Shown piece after piece: positions 3,586 to 14,796 of a stretch of 36,922 bases of DNA. The DNA comes from Oscillospiraceae bacterium (GTDB lineage Bacteria; Bacillota; Clostridia; Oscillospirales; Acutalibacteraceae). The translations under genes were made by a program, and so were the position numbers. A model generated the notes under the pieces. That model worked only from the letters and a program-made list of their open reading frames with translations, did no database searches and was not told where the DNA came from. The stretch spans positions 1 to 36,922 of the forward strand of contig SVPF01000002.1 of NCBI GenBank assembly GCA_015066005.1, given 5' to 3'. The first letter of the stretch is position 1, and each line of letters begins with the position of its first letter.

Positions 3586-3615
3586 TCTGCTTATTATTTA
3601 AAAGAATTGGCAGAA

Positions 3616-3801
3616 TTAAAATTCTGCGTTGCGAATTACACGTTCCGAATGGCTTTTAACAACCCTGAAGGCTTTGCGGCGGAAGTATGCCTTTATTTTG
3701 CGTTCGAACGCTACAAGGCGATGCTCGTTAAAAATGCACCAAACAAGTGTGCCAACAAGTGAAAATTCAAAAATTGTGCTTAAAATATCAAATAATGTCA
3801 T
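3616..3801 (-). CDS. Small SOS-controlled membrane protein (unknown function)
   Basis: 61 aa. I do not recognise the family. One hydrophobic segment (about residues 4-24) is followed by a strongly basic tail (RKIKAYFRRKAFR), which predicts a single-pass protein with its C-terminus in the cytoplasm. It is not one of the shadow frames: GGGAGG lies 8 nt before the ATG, a perfect consensus promoter lies upstream, a terminator lies downstream, and a LexA box sits between promoter and RBS. LexA control of a tiny membrane protein recalls SOS cell-division inhibitors (YneA in Bacillus, SidA in Caulobacter), but this protein has no LysM domain and no visible similarity to either, so that role is inference. 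A membrane toxin is an alternative. It is divergent from the peptide cassette. Confidence 0.8.
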   Translation of the reverse strand: MTLFDILSTIFEFSLVGTLVWCIFNEHRLVAFERKIKAYFRRKAFRVVKSHSERVIRNAEF

Positions 3802-3814
3802 TTCTAATTCCTCC

Positions 3815-3828
3815 CGAACATTTGTTCG
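3815..3828. promoter_or_regulatory. LexA (SOS) box
   Basis: CGAACAAATGTTCG has perfect CGAAC/GTTCG half-sites separated by 4 nt and fits the Gram-positive LexA/DinR consensus CGAACRNRYGTTYC at every position but the last. It lies 8 nt downstream of the -10 box, spans the transcription start region and ends one base before the GGAGG ribosome-binding site of the 61-aa gene, an ideal repressor position. Confidence 0.88.
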
Positions 3829-3836
3829 TTATTTGT

Positions 3837-3865
3837 ATTATAACCCGATTTTTGCGCTTTGTCAA
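3837..3865 (-). promoter_or_regulatory. Perfect consensus sigma-A promoter of the 61-aa gene
   Basis: TTGACA (3860-3865), exactly 17 bp, then TATAAT (3837-3842) on the minus strand. Such a strong promoter is usual for tightly repressed SOS genes. Confidence 0.92.
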
Positions 3866-3958
3866 GCATTTTTTAACTTTTTTCGGTGTATTTATTATAT
3901 AACGGGTTAAGTGACGTTTTTGGGACACAAGAAAAAATATTTTTTTCAAAATATACAG

Positions 3959-3987
3959 TTGACAACAGGGCAAAGGTGTTGTATAAT
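3959..3987 (+). promoter_or_regulatory. Perfect consensus sigma-A promoter of the peptide cassette
   Basis: TTGACA (3959-3964), 17 bp, TATAAT (3982-3987). The untranslated leader of about 65 nt ends in a small hairpin, GCGTT/AACGC (4029-4042), placed 2 nt before AAGGAGG. No LexA box is seen on this side. Confidence 0.92.
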
Positions 3988-4058
3988 AATTGTGAATTAT
4001 AGTAAATGGTGTTTTGTGACGAGTTAGTGCGTTAGTAAACGCTTAAGGAGGTTTTGAA

Positions 4059-4172
4059 ATGAAATTTGAATTCCCTGAGGTTAATAAAATTTCCTTTGAA
4101 TCAAAGGAGTCTATCGCGCTTATTATTGAAGATCCTGAAATCTCTTTCACACAAAGCGGCGAAGAAATCTAA
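4059..4172 (+). CDS. 37-aa acidic peptide, candidate RiPP precursor
   Basis: The 37-aa product begins MKFEFPEVNKISFES and ends ISFTQSGEEI. It has a near-optimal AAGGAGG 7 nt before the ATG, a perfect promoter, and an intrinsic terminator right behind it, so it should be strongly expressed. It is acidic, with Ser and Thr near the C-terminus (Ser29, Thr31, Ser33). The next three genes encode an HPr-kinase-like protein, a PqqD-type peptide carrier and a signal-peptidase-like protein, the set expected to bind, modify and cut a short peptide. Short MK.E.PE..-type peptides next to PqqD-like proteins are common in Clostridia in my recollection; function and modification are inferred. It has no Cys and no signal peptide. 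Confidence 0.75.
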   Translation: MKFEFPEVNKISFESKESIALIIEDPEISFTQSGEEI

Positions 4173-4179
4173 AAAAGGA

Positions 4180-4207
4180 TGCTCGGTAGTAATACCGAGC
4201 ATTTTTT
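4180..4207 (+). terminator. Terminator/attenuator between peptide and maturation genes
   Basis: A perfect 9-bp stem TGCTCGGTA/TACCGAGCA with a GTAA loop is followed by six T. It lies 7 nt after the peptide stop and 36 nt before the kinase gene. It should make peptide mRNA far more abundant than the downstream genes, a typical RiPP operon arrangement. A TTGACA (4206-4211) overlaps the T-run, but its matching -10 (TAAAGT, 4229-4234) is poor. Confidence 0.9.
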
Positions 4208-4243
4208 GACAATAATAAAATGTTATTTTAAAGTGAGCTAAGA

Positions 4244-4948
4244 ATGAAAAAATACTCTATTTGCGGCTTAAATGTTTTGATGGATGCGGGTGAAATTACT
4301 TCCCGTCAGGCAGAAAAATATTTAAGTCCGGAAGGCTTTGAAAAAGCTGATATTACCGTTGTTCCTACTAAGGAAGCAATTGAAGCTTATACTGCACGCT
4401 GTAAAACCACTGATGAAATTTCGTCTTATATGGTGGAAGCAGGTATTTTTTATCGTCAGCTTTTAAATTTTGACGGTGTGTTTTTGCATGCATCGGCTGT
4501 GGTGTATAACGACAGGGCATACTTGTTTTCTGCACCCTGCGGTACGGGTAAGTCAACACATACATCGCTGTGGCTTGAGTTATTGGGCGACAGGGCTTAT
4601 ATTTTAAATGATGATAAGCCTGCCATTCGTGTTTTAGGTGATGGTATTTATGCCTACGGTACCCCCTTCAGCGGTAAGCATGATATAAGCGTGCCAAAGG
4701 CCGTAAAGCTTGGCGGTGTTTGTTTTATAAGCCGCGGTGAAGAGGATAAGGTATCTCGTATGGAGAACCGCGAGGCTGTGCTTAAAATGTACCACGCTTC
4801 TCTTCGTAAAATTGATGAACAGCAGCTTGATAAGGAACTTGAAGTTTTACAAAAAATTGCGATGAATATACCCGTTTATAAAATGGAGTGCACACCAACC
4901 CTTAATGCCGCAAGGGTAGCGGTTGAAGCTATGACTAAAGGAGAATAA
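4244..4948 (+). CDS. HPr kinase-like P-loop protein of a RiPP-type cassette
   Basis: 234 aa. The C-terminal two thirds resemble the HprK/PEP-carboxykinase-like P-loop domain: Walker A in SAPCGTGKST (96-105), a preceding LHASAVV strand (81-87), and NDDKP (122-126) at the place of the acidic Walker B-type residues. It is shorter than true HPr kinase (about 310 aa), lacks its N-terminal regulatory domain, and has no ptsH-like neighbour. Homologues in lasso-peptide clusters (ThcoK, PadeK) phosphorylate the C-terminal Ser of the precursor; by analogy this could phosphorylate Ser or Thr of the 37-aa peptide. That substrate is inference. The RBS is weak (GTGAG). It is followed after 3 nt by the PqqD gene. 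Confidence 0.8.
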   Translation: MKKYSICGLNVLMDAGEITSRQAEKYLSPEGFEKADITVVPTKEAIEAYTARCKTTDEISSYMVEAGIFYRQLLNFDGVFLHASAVVYNDRAYLFSAPCGTGKSTHTSLWLELLGDRAYILNDDKPAIRVLGDGIYAYGTPFSGKHDISVPKAVKLGGVCFISRGEEDKVSRMENREAVLKMYHASLRKIDEQQLDKELEVLQKIAMNIPVYKMECTPTLNAARVAVEAMTKGE

Positions 4949-4951
4949 GAT

Positions 4952-5215
4952 ATGAAGCGCAATGAAAATTATGTAGTTAAAGAGTTAATGGGAAGCTATG
5001 TTTTAGTACCCCTTGGGGAAGCCGCAATTGATTTTAACGGCGTTATAACTTTAAATGAAACCGCAAAATTTATGTGGGAAGCCGCAAAGGGCGATTTTAC
5101 CGAGCAGGATTTACAGGCTGCTTTAATAAAGCAATACGGTATTGATGCCGAAACAGCAAAATCGGCTGTGGATAGCTTTGTAACAACTATGAAAGAGGAA
5201 GGCTGTATTGAATAA
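4952..5215 (+). CDS. PqqD-family RiPP recognition element (peptide chaperone)
   Basis: 87 aa, a typical size for a stand-alone PqqD/RRE protein. The winged-helix-like signature is visible: two N-terminal strands (YVVKELMGSYVLVPLGEA), a strand with GVITLNETAKFMWEA (30-44), and a C-terminal helical part ending EEGCIE. PqqD-like proteins bind the leader of ribosomal peptides and present it to modifying enzymes; here the likely guest is the 37-aa peptide. The RBS GGAG is 7 nt before the ATG. The 3' end overlaps the next gene by 8 nt, so the two are translationally coupled. It is not fused to a radical SAM enzyme or to an E1-like enzyme, and none is encoded nearby. Confidence 0.85.
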   Translation: MKRNENYVVKELMGSYVLVPLGEAAIDFNGVITLNETAKFMWEAAKGDFTEQDLQAALIKQYGIDAETAKSAVDSFVTTMKEEGCIE

Positions 5216-5666
5216 AAAGCGTGTTCCTATGGAGGAGCTTTATCCCGTAATGGCGGGAAAAATTGCCGACGGCGGCGAGGTCACCTTTAAGGTTTCGGGA
5301 AGAAGTATGCAGCCAATGGTTTTTCACCGTCGTGATACGGTAACCATTAAAAAGCATATCGGAAGGCTTAAAAAATATGATATTCCTTTTTACCGCCGTG
5401 ATGACGGGAGCTTTATTTTGCACCGTGTAATAAAGCTGCAAAAAAACGGCAATTATACCTGCCGCGGCGATAATCAATGGGAAAAGGAATTTGACGTTCG
5501 TGACGACCAAATAATCGGTGTTGTAACCGCATTTACCCGCAACGGAAAGGCGGTTGATGTAAAGCTTTCCAAGGGTTATAAGCTTTATTGCAGGTTGTGG
5601 CCGTGGGTGCATTTTTTAAAGCCCTGCTATAAATATTATGTAAAATTTAAAAATTTGTTTAAGTGA
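5208..5666 (+). CDS. S24/S26-type signal-peptidase-like protein
   Basis: 152 aa. It contains the signal peptidase box SGRSMQP, with the nucleophile Ser33 next to Met, then ILHRVIK with His72, and RGDNQ (86-90), which matches the GDN box. A His where bacterial type I enzymes have Lys is the pattern of ER-type (SipW-like) signal peptidases, so a Ser-His mechanism is likely. No clear transmembrane helix is present; only the aromatic C-terminal end (KLYCRLWPWVHFLKPCY) could touch the membrane. The start is TTG at 5208 with AGGAAGG about 5 nt upstream; ATG at 5229 is the alternative. It probably processes the cassette peptide. This last gene is closed by the hairpin at 5689. Confidence 0.78.
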   Translation: MNKKRVPMEELYPVMAGKIADGGEVTFKVSGRSMQPMVFHRRDTVTIKKHIGRLKKYDIPFYRRDDGSFILHRVIKLQKNGNYTCRGDNQWEKEFDVRDDQIIGVVTAFTRNGKAVDVKLSKGYKLYCRLWPWVHFLKPCYKYYVKFKNLFK

Positions 5667-5688
5667 TTGTTAAAGGCTCAGGCGTTTT

Positions 5689-5725
5689 GGCGTGATACTC
5701 CAAACGGAGTATCACGCCAGTTTTA
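5689..5725 (+). terminator. Terminator of the peptide cassette
   Basis: A perfect 13-bp stem (GGCGTGATACTCC, 5689-5701 with 5706-5718) with an AAAC loop is followed by AGTTTTATT. The stem contains GTGATA, a word that recurs in the repeats just downstream. Confidence 0.85.
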
Positions 5726-5889
5726 TTCGCCTACGGTGAATTCTATTGCTACGCAGTGTTATTCGGCTTACGCCGAGTGATATTTGCTTCGCAAGTTTAT
5801 GGCGAATAGAATATCACTGAAGCCGTAAGGCTTCAATATCACTTTCGCAAAGCGAAAATATCACGCTGACTTTAGTCAGCATATCACTT
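5723..5889. repeat. Hairpin-array repeat, copy A
   Basis: 167 bp. The block starts with TTATTCGCC and closes that arm with GGCGAATA (about 5802-5809). It is punctuated by AGTGATATT on one side and AATATCACT on the other. Between these words sit short perfect hairpins (GGCTTACGCC, GAAGCCGTAAGGCTTC, TTTCGCAAAGCGAAA, GCTGACTTTAGTCAGC). Overall it is a long palindrome made of small hairpins. It does not code. Copy B follows at 5954. Confidence 0.8.
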
Positions 5890-5953
5890 AATAGACAAAA
5901 CAAAGAGAAGACTCGTTGAAGAGGCGCGCTCCGTAAGGAAGTGCGCCTCAGTC

Positions 5954-6075
5954 TTATTCGCCCAAGGCGAGTTTTATTGCTTCGCAGTGATATTCGACTA
6001 CCGCCTAGTGTTATTCGCTTCGCGAGTTTAGGGGCGAATAAAATATCACTAAAACCGCAAGGTTTTAATATCACT
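5954..6075. repeat. Hairpin-array repeat, copy B
   Basis: 122 bp, the same order of parts as copy A: TTATTCGCC, TATTGCTTCGCAGTGATATTCG, TATTCGCTTCGCGAGTTTA, GGGCGAATA, then AATATCACT, a hairpin (AAAACCGCAAGGTTTT) and AATATCACT. By eye it is about 75-80% identical to copy A over its length and lacks the last two hairpin modules of copy A, so copies differ by whole modules. Confidence 0.8.
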
Positions 6076-6126
6076 TATTATTTTTATCTTTGAGATAGGT
6101 GATATTTTAAATACGTAACCTACTAT

Positions 6127-6155
6127 GACACTTTCAAACAGAAAGTGTCAATTTT
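6127..6155 (+). terminator. Terminator-like hairpin in the 5.7-6.4 kb gap
   Basis: GACACTTTC/GAAAGTGTC, a perfect 9-bp stem with an AAACA loop, followed by AATTTTT. No gene ends nearby, so it may be a leftover of a lost gene or part of the repeat region. Confidence 0.65.
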
Positions 6156-6346
6156 TATATAAAAAGAAAATGTGAAGAACACTTCCTTACGAAGTGTCTC
6201 CCAAAAACGAATCTTCTCTTCTCTTCTCTTTTCTTTTGTTAGTGGCTTGGGCTTTTTGTTTTGTGTTGAAAATTGGTTATAGATTTTAAAATTAAATATT
6301 TATTCATAAATAAATGAAAAAACCCCTTTATTTTTAGGGGGCTTTG

Positions 6347-6355
6347 TGATATAAT
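6347..6355 (+). promoter_or_regulatory. Extended -10 promoter of the lipoprotein/two-component operon
   Basis: TGATATAAT is an extended -10 element (TGN-TATAAT). The -35 region (TTTATT at 6327-6332) is weak. It is the last promoter-like site before the lipoprotein gene at 6405, about 45 nt upstream of its RBS-bearing leader, and may serve the long downstream operon. Confidence 0.6.
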
Positions 6356-6404
6356 TTACCGTGAATGATTATGTGCAATTTTATATTTAAAAGGAGGGCT
6401 CACA

Positions 6405-7718
6405 ATGGTTAGAAAAATTGGTTTGGCGGCAGTTATAATGGCGCTTGTTTTAACACTTTGCGGTTGCGATTTTGTTAAGACCGATATGGCTGAGCTTTTT
6501 TCACCCCCAACCTTGACGGGCGACTTTAAATATATATCAAAAATTATTGAAAAAACTGCAGGAAGCGGTTATACACTTAAATATCCCGTTCGCGGTGAGC
6601 ATCGTTCGGCGGTTGTTCAGTACGATATTGACGGTGACGGCAAAAATGAGGCTTTTGCCTTTTACAGTAAGGTTGAAGGTGACGTCACCACTATGACGGT
6701 ACAGCTTGTTCGTGATGAAAAGGGCAAGTGGATCGATGGCGGCACACAAACAATTATTGCCTCAGGCGTGGATATGGTCCAGTTTTGCGACCTTGACAAT
6801 AACGGAGTTAGTGAAATTCTTGTCGGTTGGCAAATTTACGGCTCAAGCGAAATGCAGTTGGCGGTTTACGGCTACAATAATAACACCTTTGTTCAGCGCC
6901 TTTTGCAAAAATATACAACCTTTATTACCTGTGACCTTAACGGCGACCAAAAAAGCGGGGTGCTGATTATTGATATTAACACAACCGAACAGCACAACAC
7001 AGCGGCGCTTTACGCTTTAGATGATGAAGGTGTTATTCAAACAGGTATATGCGAGCTTGACAGCAAGCTGCAGTCTATCGGCAATCCGATTGTGTCCGAG
7101 CTTTCAAACGGCAGAAACGCGGTTTATCTTGATGCCGTAAAGGGTATGGGTGCCGTGACAGAGGTGCTTGTTGAAGATAAGGGCGGTCTTAGTAACCCGC
7201 TTTTTGATGTTGAAGCCCGCGAAAACCTTCGCACTCTGCGTTCCTCAAGCTTTTCGGTAACGGACATAAATAACGACGGCATTTTGGAAATTCCCGTGCA
7301 GGAAAACATACCCTCTGTTGCAAATGATGCCTTGGCCGAAAAGCTTTATCTTACAAATTGGTGTTCGTTTGACGGTGAAAACCTTACCGTGCAAACCACC
7401 ACAATGATAAATGTTAACGACGGTTATTATTTTACAATACCTACAAAGTGGCGTAACCGAATTGCCGTTTTGAAGGATACCGAAAACCGTATTCGCGAAA
7501 TTTATTTGTACGACTTTAAGCAGTCGGTTATAGGCGAAAGCCTTATATGCATTCGCGCCTTTAATAAAAAGAATTGGGAAGCAGGCAAATATAAGGAGCT
7601 TCGCATGAACGAAATTGCCCGTAATGATAATACGGTTTTTGCTTACAAGCTGAATGATGCAATAATTGAAATGGGCATAACCCACAGCGATGTTGAAAAA
7701 GCCTTTGTGCTTTACTGA
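6405..7718 (+). CDS. FG-GAP/VCBS-repeat-like lipoprotein next to a two-component system
   Basis: 437 aa. The N-terminus is a lipoprotein signal peptide ending in LCGC, with Cys21 as the lipidation site, so the protein sits on the outer face of the membrane. At least four DxDxDG-like calcium-loop repeats are visible (DIDGDGKNEAF, DLDNNGVSEIL, DLNGDQKSGVL, DINNDGILEIP), the pattern of VCBS/FG-GAP beta-propeller blades. AAGGAGG lies 7 nt before the ATG. The stop is 14 nt before the response regulator start, so the three genes probably form one unit; a role as ligand sensor or partner of the histidine kinase is inference. The specific ligand is unknown. Confidence 0.8.
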   Translation: MVRKIGLAAVIMALVLTLCGCDFVKTDMAELFSPPTLTGDFKYISKIIEKTAGSGYTLKYPVRGEHRSAVVQYDIDGDGKNEAFAFYSKVEGDVTTMTVQLVRDEKGKWIDGGTQTIIASGVDMVQFCDLDNNGVSEILVGWQIYGSSEMQLAVYGYNNNTFVQRLLQKYTTFITCDLNGDQKSGVLIIDINTTEQHNTAALYALDDEGVIQTGICELDSKLQSIGNPIVSELSNGRNAVYLDAVKGMGAVTEVLVEDKGGLSNPLFDVEARENLRTLRSSSFSVTDINNDGILEIPVQENIPSVANDALAEKLYLTNWCSFDGENLTVQTTTMINVNDGYYFTIPTKWRNRIAVLKDTENRIREIYLYDFKQSVIGESLICIRAFNKKNWEAGKYKELRMNEIARNDNTVFAYKLNDAIIEMGITHSDVEKAFVLY

Positions 7719-12858: not shown

Positions 12859-13469
12859 TGCAAATAACCGACATTAAAAAGGATAAGCTTCACCTTACTA
12901 GAATGTTTCTTTCCAACGGGGAAGAGGTGCTTATTGATAACGATGTTTACAGTGAGCATTGTTTGAAAAAGGGTGACGCTTTAACCGAAGAAAAGCTTAA
13001 CGATTTAATTTTTCAGTCGCAATACCTCAGGGCAAAATCCCGTGCGGTGTGGTACCTTGACCGAAAGGACCGCACCTCGAAGGATTTATACAATAAGCTG
13101 TGTCAGGCAGGGTTTGACAAAAAAGCCTGCGCAAAGGTTATTGCCAGACTTCAAGAGGTTGGTCTTATTGATGACCGCCGCTTTGCCGAAAATTACGCCA
13201 ACCGCTTAATTGAAGGGAACACATCCAAAAGGGAAGCGCTTCAAAAAATGCTTCAAAAGGGCGTGCCTTACGATATGGCAAAGGATGTTTTGGCAAGCTG
13301 TGATGCTGACGAGGCTGAGCAAATTAACGCGTTAATTGATAAAAAATACCGCACAAGGCTTTTAAGTGACGGCGGCGCACAAAAGGTTTATGCCGCACTT
13401 ATTCGCAAGGGCTTTTCCTATGATGCGGTAAGGACAGCACTTAAGAATTATACAGAATTTGAGGATTAG
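12858..13469 (+). CDS. recX: Regulatory protein RecX
   Basis: 203 aa. RecX binds RecA filaments and limits their activity. Three-helix repeats typical of the family are visible, including KDLYNKLCQAGFDKKACAKVI, LIDDRRFAENYANRLI and a final KGFSYDAVRTALKN. Length suits Firmicute RecX, which is longer than the enteric form (about 165 aa). The start codon overlaps the recA stop (TAATG), so translation is coupled and RecX is made in proportion to RecA. No separate promoter is visible. Confidence 0.93.
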   Translation: MQITDIKKDKLHLTRMFLSNGEEVLIDNDVYSEHCLKKGDALTEEKLNDLIFQSQYLRAKSRAVWYLDRKDRTSKDLYNKLCQAGFDKKACAKVIARLQEVGLIDDRRFAENYANRLIEGNTSKREALQKMLQKGVPYDMAKDVLASCDADEAEQINALIDKKYRTRLLSDGGAQKVYAALIRKGFSYDAVRTALKNYTEFED

Positions 13470-13470
13470 T

Positions 13471-14796
13471 ATGTACAAGGTTAGTATGGTGTCACTTGGT
13501 TGCCCTAAAAATCAGGTCGATGCCGAGCAAATGCTTTACACATTGCAAAGCGCAGGGTTTGAGCTTACCCCCGCCGAAGCTGAAGCTGATGCAATTATAA
13601 TTAACACCTGCGGGTTTATTGAATCGGCCAAGGCGGAAGCTATTGAAAATATTTTAGAAGCCGCAAAATATAAGGATGAAGGAAACTGCAAGGCGCTTAT
13701 AGTTACGGGCTGTTTGGCTGAAAGATACCAAAACGATGTCACCGAAGAAATTCCCGAGGTTGATGCCTGCGTTGGTATTGGCTCGAACGGTAAAATTGCC
13801 GAAATTGTAAAAAATGCAATTGAAGGCAGGTGTGAAAATTCCTTTGGCGCAAAAGAAAATTTGGATTTAAACTCAAAACGAATTTTAGGCGGTTATCCAT
13901 TTACGGCATATTTAAAGGTGGCTGATGGCTGTAACAATTGCTGTACCTATTGCGCAATACCAAAAATTCGCGGTAAAATGCGCAGCCGTAGAATTGAGGA
14001 TTGTGTGGCTGAAGCCAAGGAGCTTGCAATGGGCGGTGTAAGGGAGCTTATTGTTGTCGCACAGGACACTACCGCTTATGGCAGTGACATTTACGGTAAA
14101 CCGATGCTGGCTACACTTTTAAAAGAGCTTTGCAAAATTGACGGTATCCATTGGGTGCGTACCCTGTACACCTACCCCGATAAAATTGACGACGAGCTTT
14201 TAGAAACTATAAAAAATGAAGAAAAGCTTATAAAATATCTTGACATTCCTATTCAGCATGTTAACAGTGATATTTTAAAGAAAATGAACCGTAAGGGCAG
14301 TCGTGAGGATTTAGAAAGCCTTATTAAGAAAATAAGAAAAGAAATTCCCGACATCACTTTAAGAACAACCCTTATTACAGGTTTCCCCGGGGAAAGTGAA
14401 GAACAGTTTGAGGATCTTTGCGAATTTGTAAAGGAAACCCGCTTTGACCGCCTTGGCTGTTTTGCCTACTCACCCGAGGAGGACACGGTAGCGGCTGAAA
14501 TGCCAAACCAAATAGATGAGCAAACCAAGGTGTCCCGCGCGGAAAACATTATGGAAATGCAAATGGACATTATGCGCGAGAAAAACGAGGAAAAAATCGG
14601 CACAGTGCTTGAGGTTATAATTGAAGGCTGGGACGATTATATAAAATGTTATTTTGGCAGAACCGTTTGCGATGCGCCCGAGGTTGACGGCAAAATTTTC
14701 TTTATGTCAGATAGACCTCTTATTATAGGTGATTTTGCAAATGTGCAAATAAACGACTGTTTAGATTATGATTTGTTAGGAGAGTTAAAAATATGA
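13471..14796 (+). CDS. rimO: Ribosomal protein uS12 methylthiotransferase
   Basis: 441 aa. RimO is a radical SAM enzyme that adds a methylthio group to the conserved Asp of ribosomal protein S12. The N-terminal methylthiotransferase domain has the cluster ligands Cys11, Cys47 and Cys81; SLGCPKNQVDAE is characteristic of RimO rather than MiaB. The radical SAM CxxxCxxC is Cys154, Cys158, Cys161, followed by a TRAM-like C-terminus (about 375-441). ATG 13471 has GAGG upstream and follows the recX stop by one base; a start at 13459 would overlap recX. It overlaps pgsA by ATGA. Confidence 0.95.
   Translation: MYKVSMVSLGCPKNQVDAEQMLYTLQSAGFELTPAEAEADAIIINTCGFIESAKAEAIENILEAAKYKDEGNCKALIVTGCLAERYQNDVTEEIPEVDACVGIGSNGKIAEIVKNAIEGRCENSFGAKENLDLNSKRILGGYPFTAYLKVADGCNNCCTYCAIPKIRGKMRSRRIEDCVAEAKELAMGGVRELIVVAQDTTAYGSDIYGKPMLATLLKELCKIDGIHWVRTLYTYPDKIDDELLETIKNEEKLIKYLDIPIQHVNSDILKKMNRKGSREDLESLIKKIRKEIPDITLRTTLITGFPGESEEQFEDLCEFVKETRFDRLGCFAYSPEEDTVAAEMPNQIDEQTKVSRAENIMEMQMDIMREKNEEKIGTVLEVIIEGWDDYIKCYFGRTVCDAPEVDGKIFFMSDRPLIIGDFANVQINDCLDYDLLGELKI

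Follow-up and report, generated by a model that had tools for sequence, protein, structure and literature searches.

A clostridial kinase-PqqD-peptidase cassette resembling the linear polyphosphorylated peptide pathway, with probable further precursors behind secreted-protein genes

What is made of a 37-residue peptide encoded directly ahead of an HprK-like kinase, a stand-alone PqqD-type protein and a signal-peptidase-like protein? The question arises from a 36,922-nucleotide stretch of DNA (the window; C33:1-36922) of a draft Oscillospiraceae genome, 1.97 Mb long and 88% complete. An initial annotation, made from the sequence of the window, proposed that PqqD binds the peptide, the kinase phosphorylates it and the peptidase cuts it, with no cyclase involved, and suggested a little-described type of ribosomally synthesized and post-translationally modified peptide (RiPP). 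All four genes are present, as are the kinase P-loop (GTGKST, residues 100 to 105) and Ser33 and His72 of the peptidase. The proposed division of labor matches that of the experimentally studied pathway for linear polyphosphorylated peptides (LPPs) from the Paenibacillus alginolyticus lpp cluster, and the trio recurs in relatives. LPPs were described in May 2026 (Popov et al., PMC13381572, cited here and below from the part of the report available to us), so the RiPP type was not undescribed. We consider it probable that the locus is a minimal clostridial LPP-type RiPP pathway, with gene order A-K-B-S, that also serves about nine other precursors. The cassette likely works as LPP does, which is a likeness of kind and not a placement in the published LPP clade, and the proposed mechanism is supported by homology, co-occurrence and co-variation.

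The window peptide is coding and under purifying selection, in line with the codon-level conservation on which the initial annotation had staked the frame. Compared with a sister genome, its leader (approximately residues 1 to 20, with FxxP at residues 3 to 6 and Px6F at F13) had 0.08 nonsynonymous (pN) and 0.55 synonymous (pS) differences per site, the whole length had substitution rates of dN 0.22 and dS 0.65, and two own-genome paralogs had dN 0.02 and dS 0.49. It belongs to a family with the consensus [Y/F]xxPE(I/L)E(I/V)xxFxxED(V/I)ITxS, whose members near kinase loci were sought with a profile built from ten seeds out of eight loci. The family profile matched the window peptide in its own genome at E 1.4e-6, the peptide being itself a member row. 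Profile searches gathered 128 distinct peptides in total, of which 126 carry [YF]xxP (91 Tyr, 35 Phe) and 90 have a Phe seven residues past the Pro. Among the 126 that were aligned, an ITxS-like pattern including the Ser occurs in 81 and a Ser in the C-terminal part occurs in all; there is some circularity in these counts, since it was the profile that selected the peptides. Ser29, Thr31 and Ser33 had been offered as phosphosites. Because Ser29 aligns with Asp in the sister peptide and Ser33 (codon 4155-4157) belongs to a T-x-S-G near the end of all ten own-genome peptides, Ser33 is the better guess and most likely the candidate phosphosite.

The kinase was matched in 82 of the 149 genomes searched as relatives; at least 575 contig stretches encode a kinase relative, and the best 80 of these were kept. 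Neighborhoods were counted over 120 kinase loci, near-duplicates and divergent kinases included. Counting genes that share the kinase's strand and are no more than 3.5 kb away, 86 loci have PqqD, 71 the peptidase and 68 both, so the search across Clostridia that the initial annotation had proposed does recover the trio. Among cultured relatives, Herbivorax sp. ANBcel31 (L147) is an example that carries the cluster. An ATP-binding cassette (ABC) protein was found within 6 kb at 41 loci, by a profile that may also pick up unrelated ABC proteins, and a nucleotidyltransferase at 21; none of the four partners was found at 29. A trio recurring without any short peptide would have spoken against the cassette, which comes through this check only in part. 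A family peptide lies within 5 kb on either strand (E < 1e-4) at 30 loci, including the eight seed loci and L073, a repeat of L053, and the next profile scores are 0.02 and weaker; many precursors lie elsewhere, but loci without a found peptide remain. Over 394 genomes of the order, kinship uncorrected, peptide and kinase occur together in 79 and neither occurs in 258, giving a Fisher odds ratio of 43, or 41 without the five seed genomes. As a separate observation, several of the 29 partner-less loci, of the same genus, share another neighborhood, with CapA-like and HAD neighbors by eye; L037, L044, L046, L047, L049 and L051 encode divergent HprK-like kinases of the same genus in such a recurrent neighborhood, with no PqqD or peptidase found.

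A further question is whether the HprK-like protein is a peptide kinase. It carries His82, the P-loop and Asn122-Asp-Asp-Lys125; among 24 family members H82, G102, K103, T105, N122, D124 and K125 are invariant, with Gly in place of Asp123 in part of the relatives. ScmC was matched by 23 of the 24 members, HprK_rel_A by 19 and PF07475 by 2 (E up to 0.05). For the window kinase itself the best NCBIfam match was ScmC (E 7e-8), below the curated cutoff (32.1 of 125 bits), so that an HprK-like kinase in the cluster, as in LPP, is assigned by homology under curated cutoffs. It is unlikely that the P-loop serves some other reaction, with PqqD and the peptidase only trimming the peptide, even though the window kinase had no Pfam match, its profile matched no solved structure in the PDB at E 0.1 and PEPCK was weakly matched by just 1 of the 24 relatives. 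ScmC and HprK_rel_A are the main matches, and the His-Lys-Asp-Asp residues of lasso-peptide kinases appear to be present (PMC9266682, as far as its available part goes; the residue-by-residue correspondence is our reading). In the LPP pathway, LppK phosphorylates LppA, adding several phosphates to core Ser3 (PMC13381572). Lasso kinases modify a C-terminal Ser or, for BsfK, Ser3 (available parts of PMC10368454 and PMC9266682).

The stand-alone PqqD-type protein resembles RiPP recognition elements (RREs) of two kinds. A profile from its family matched the lasso proteins TbiB1 (5v1u, E 4e-10), PbaB1 (9x90, E 3e-9) and TfuB1 (6jx3, E 3e-8) as well as LppB (9x8z, E 2e-7); a single-sequence search of the PDB returned nothing at E 0.01. 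LppB binds a YxxP leader, and its Asp70 holds the leader Tyr (PMC13381572). In the window protein Ala72 aligns with Asp70, a match read through a conserved Phe four residues on. This position is Asp at 17 of 20 loci with a Tyr leader (Glu, His and Ala at the others) and at none of eight with a Phe leader. This count leaves out L066, L135, L149, L070 and L038, where either [YF]xxP was not read or the peptide was not a real one, as well as L106 and L116, which lack PqqD, and the repeat L073; the weak peptides L056 and L094 were retained. A prediction written beforehand held for Tyr genomes, with Asp in all 20 PqqD proteins of 19 genomes and no PqqD match in G182. For Phe genomes its strict form, confined to PqqD beside the kinase, gave non-Asp in just two of five. 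Three more Phe genomes were read at a PqqD away from the kinase, each time non-Asp, and at least one non-Asp PqqD occurs in seven of the eight. Among the kinase-adjacent Asp exceptions, the locus in G398 itself encodes a Tyr leader and G436 has both leader types; for G191, the one further clue is a second PqqD with Ala. This test covered 30 of 33 PqqD matches, the other three having no locus given. When all rows are pooled, non-Asp is found in 15 of 18 with a Phe leader and Asp in 38 of 41 with a Tyr leader (Fisher p 1.4e-8; L066, L056 and L038 were left out for having no single aromatic, and L073, L135 and L119 as repeats); the tree of these short proteins had one supported pair, so it does not show the number of independent changes. 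The leader Tyr or Phe thus mostly tracks one RRE residue, and the pattern of Tyr with Asp and Phe with mostly non-Asp would extend the published Tyr/Trp discrimination by RREs to a third leader type.

The peptidase gene starts at TTG and overlaps the PqqD gene by 8 nt. Its matches to archaeal-type signal peptidase (E 7e-7) and S24 (E 2e-4) are below curated cutoffs; a profile found weak signal-peptidase matches only in the PDB (best E 0.03), a single-sequence search found nothing at E 1, and by eye no N-terminal membrane helix was seen. Ser33, His72, Asp88 and Glu94 are invariant among 26 relatives. The SipW-like LppS (S29, H68, D93) cuts after Thr-1, aided by LppB (PMC13381572), and the Ser-His spacing of 39 is the same in both proteins. 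Asp88, one candidate for the triad acid, lies 16 residues past His72 versus 25 for D93 of LppS. A SpI/SipW-like Ser-His-Asp peptidase next to a discrete RRE is found in LPP as well.

The initial annotation had allowed that the cassette relies on distant genes, and two candidates for such genes exist in the same genome. The LPP core genes include a nucleoside triphosphate transferase and an MsbA-like exporter and, in the available text, no lasso cyclase (PMC13381572). Neither gene lies beside the window cassette, a departure from the LPP core cluster. An MsbA-like ABC exporter is encoded on C32 (L072:7047-8974), directly 3' of a second, divergent PqqD-like gene that falls just under the Pfam cutoff and, by eye, adjoins prophage-like terminase and portal genes. 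A PF14907 (NTP_transf_5) nucleotidyltransferase lies on C24 (L326:6104-7321) within a UDP-sugar epimerase and polysaccharide locus. Loss of the LPP nucleotidyltransferase gave no visible change (PMC13381572), and the homologous enzyme for pseudomycoidin is reported to add hexoses to phosphorylated Ser (available part of PMC9266682).

A rival idea is a decayed or split lasso cluster, with cyclase and B2 protein elsewhere and a phosphorylated lasso peptide as product. The best-scoring lasso B1 proteins fit this idea, as does a [Y/W]xxP leader motif common to lasso leaders (PMC13381572). We regard it as very improbable: the own genome had no Transglut_core3 (B2) match and a single Asn_synthase match of 34 columns (E 1e-4, just over the cutoff), and a SipW-like peptidase stands beside PqqD in many relatives of the trio. 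Lack of cyclase and B2 agrees with LPP in this 88%-complete genome, although absence is not proof because of that incompleteness.

The adjacent peptide, taken by the initial annotation as the substrate, is probably not the sole one. Besides the window peptide, a search of the genome with the peptide profile turned up nine other sites at E 4e-6 to 0.01, all nine beginning 12 to 18 nt past the stop codon of another open frame. Six of the upstream genes are complete (664 to 1487 residues), have a signal peptide by our rule and end 12 to 13 nt from the peptide; three are truncated at contig ends. The secreted proteins have a common C-terminal domain of approximately 130 residues with no Pfam match, and outside it an above-cutoff domain was found in two of seven scanned (a carbohydrate-binding module and a metallophosphoesterase). 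Of 15 copies of the C-terminal domain in the genome, 5 run off contig ends and 10 reach its end; a peptide lies directly 3' of nine of these ten, the tenth being a secreted Endonuclease I protein on C4 (L164:10785-13892) with no precursor peptide behind it.

The same arrangement was seen in relatives, in two sets of genomes chosen for having peptides. Set 1 (67 of 111 profile matches plus one own-genome match, with G007:C20 dropped for a broken frame) comprised, minus the own genome, 58 peptides from 24 genomes: a frame of at least 250 residues ended within 60 nt upstream of 38, 3 were at contig ends, and 27 of 29 complete upstream frames satisfied the signal-peptide rule. Set 2 (43 of 189 matches from 30 genomes, picked by us among stronger matches and mostly distant from a kinase) had a long upstream frame at 31 of 43, one peptide at a contig end, and 24 of 25 complete upstream frames satisfying the rule. 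At least one unit of secreted protein and peptide occurs in 22 of the 24 genomes in Set 1 and in 23 of the 30 in Set 2, together spanning 26 genera. The background rate was 45 of 661, counted as genes preceded by such a long gene among all genes of at least 100 residues in 80 loci; this replaced a short open reading frame control that had only five members, one itself a missed precursor. The signal-peptide rule is loose, being positive for 164 of 380 genes of at least 250 residues in the 80 loci. The linkage of precursor genes to secreted proteins is apparently unreported; none was found in titles and abstract openings, in searches little aimed at the point that covered few subscription journals.

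Could the trio act on the adjacent peptide only, the scattered peptides sharing the motif by descent and having a different function, for instance in regulation or immunity? Ten of 89 peptide-positive genomes have no kinase match, and a promoter of its own and a diverged C-terminus mark the window peptide, as this would suggest. We nonetheless consider it rather unlikely, as leader motif and spacing are identical in the window and scattered peptides, peptide and kinase co-occur strongly, and for unlinked peptides too the residue in the leader mostly goes with that in the RRE.

Several results weigh against an LPP-like pathway serving many precursors. The window peptide itself has no ITxS motif, none of the 128 distinct peptides matches the LPP motif Px9Fx[T/A], and lasso B1 proteins outscore LppB with the PqqD profile. 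The strict Phe prediction failed in three of five genomes. In Set 1, 17 of the 58 peptides have no long frame directly upstream, as do 11 of the 43 in Set 2, 10 genomes have a peptide without a kinase match and 47 a kinase without a peptide, and the own genome is only a draft.

On balance we favor the LPP-like pathway, which could proceed as follows. The peptide would be made from a strong promoter, and its N-terminal FxxP leader would be bound by the PqqD-type protein, as homology and co-variation suggest. The HprK-like kinase would place one or more phosphates on a Ser toward the C-terminus, with Ser33 the likeliest target, and the SipW-like peptidase, helped by PqqD, would cut past a small residue near Ala20. 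The MsbA-like exporter and nucleotidyltransferase, which often complete such clusters, lie on other contigs. The cassette probably acts in trans on about nine other precursors, presumably co-transcribed with the secreted-protein genes that precede them, and the mature phosphopeptide may, speculatively, act outside the cell with the secreted proteins, with a surface polysaccharide as a conceivable partner in attachment or assembly. A bolder proposal, which we hold only tentatively and think doubtful, is RiPP-based protein sorting: one trans-acting machine would serve two-gene units genome-wide, and the exported phosphopeptide, perhaps elaborated by the nucleotidyltransferase of the polysaccharide locus, would partner the C-terminal domain and fix or assemble the secreted proteins at the surface. 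LPPs have no known role in the available text (PMC13381572), and the tie between precursors and secreted proteins offers a concrete clue to the purpose that such phosphopeptides may have.

Table 1. Features of the cassette and its signals (window coordinates)
Feature	Position	Strand	Basis
Sigma-70 type promoter of peptide (TTGACA-17-TATAAT)	3959..3987	+	12/12 consensus positions; consensus match only
Shine-Dalgarno of peptide (AAGGAGG)	4045..4051	+	Read from letters
Precursor-like peptide, 37 aa	4059..4172	+	Family profile match, purifying selection
Intrinsic-terminator-like hairpin and T run, between peptide and kinase	4174..4207	+	-20.7 kcal/mol, z -7.7
Second promoter-like site, 5' of kinase	4206..4234	+	10/12 consensus positions; weak
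HprK-related kinase (LppK-like), 234 aa	4244..4948	+	Family members match ScmC, HprK_rel_A
Stand-alone PqqD-type RRE (LppB-like), 87 aa	4952..5215	+	PF05402 E 3e-15, above cutoff
SipW/archaeal-type signal-peptidase-like serine protease (LppS-like), 152 aa	5208..5666	+	Sub-cutoff profile matches; invariant residues

The strong expression claimed for the peptide fits its full promoter match, from which expression itself is only deduced. The hairpin between peptide and kinase was not part of the initial annotation; none of 200 shuffles was equally stable, and a scan for terminator-like sites had it on the minus strand only. Together, promoter, hairpin and the weaker promoter-like site ahead of the kinase could yield far more peptide than enzyme. 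Elsewhere in the window, positions 5687-6150, 3' of the peptidase, hold inverted repeats, terminator-like hairpins and, by eye, ATATCAC-like repeats, and 14 terminator-like sites were observed over 3600-6500 versus 3 expected. The initial annotation saw no radical SAM enzyme in the window, but RimO, a housekeeping radical SAM protein above its NCBIfam cutoff, is encoded at 13459-14796 (+).

Among known systems, SynChlorMet cassettes share a PqqD-like ScmD, and ScmC is the best NCBIfam match of the kinase. They include radical SAM partners, and none of that type lies beside the window cassette; as an assignment, SynChlorMet was rejected, the kinase being far under the ScmC cutoff. Prochlorosins likewise pair a single maturation enzyme with many scattered precursors, through lanthipeptide chemistry, and we know of none whose precursors neighbor secreted-protein genes. 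Paeninodin-type lasso clusters share the HprK-like kinase, a discrete PqqD-type B1 protein and the nucleotidyltransferase; they differ in having WxxP leaders (PMC13381572) where the window has FxxP, and in the B2 protein and cyclase, of which no B2 and no convincing cyclase was found in the own genome. No clostridial LPP was found in titles and abstract openings (few subscription journals covered), a single paper among those covered uses the LPP name, the available parts of PMC12710340 and, by term search, PMC7470986 do not mention this kinase type, and supplementary lists of the LPP paper may hold clostridial members. LPP itself is the closest likeness of kind: the window cassette has the HprK-like kinase, stand-alone RRE and SipW-like Ser/His peptidase, no macrolactam cyclase was found, and the family has a [Y/F]xxP-type leader and, in part of its wider membership, the nucleotidyltransferase and MsbA-like exporter. 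The LPP leader YxxPxVLxHQxIxFETxxS differs from the family consensus given above, and the window lineage is further set apart by its FxxP leader, by an exporter and nucleotidyltransferase unlinked to the cassette, and by further precursors behind secreted-protein genes.

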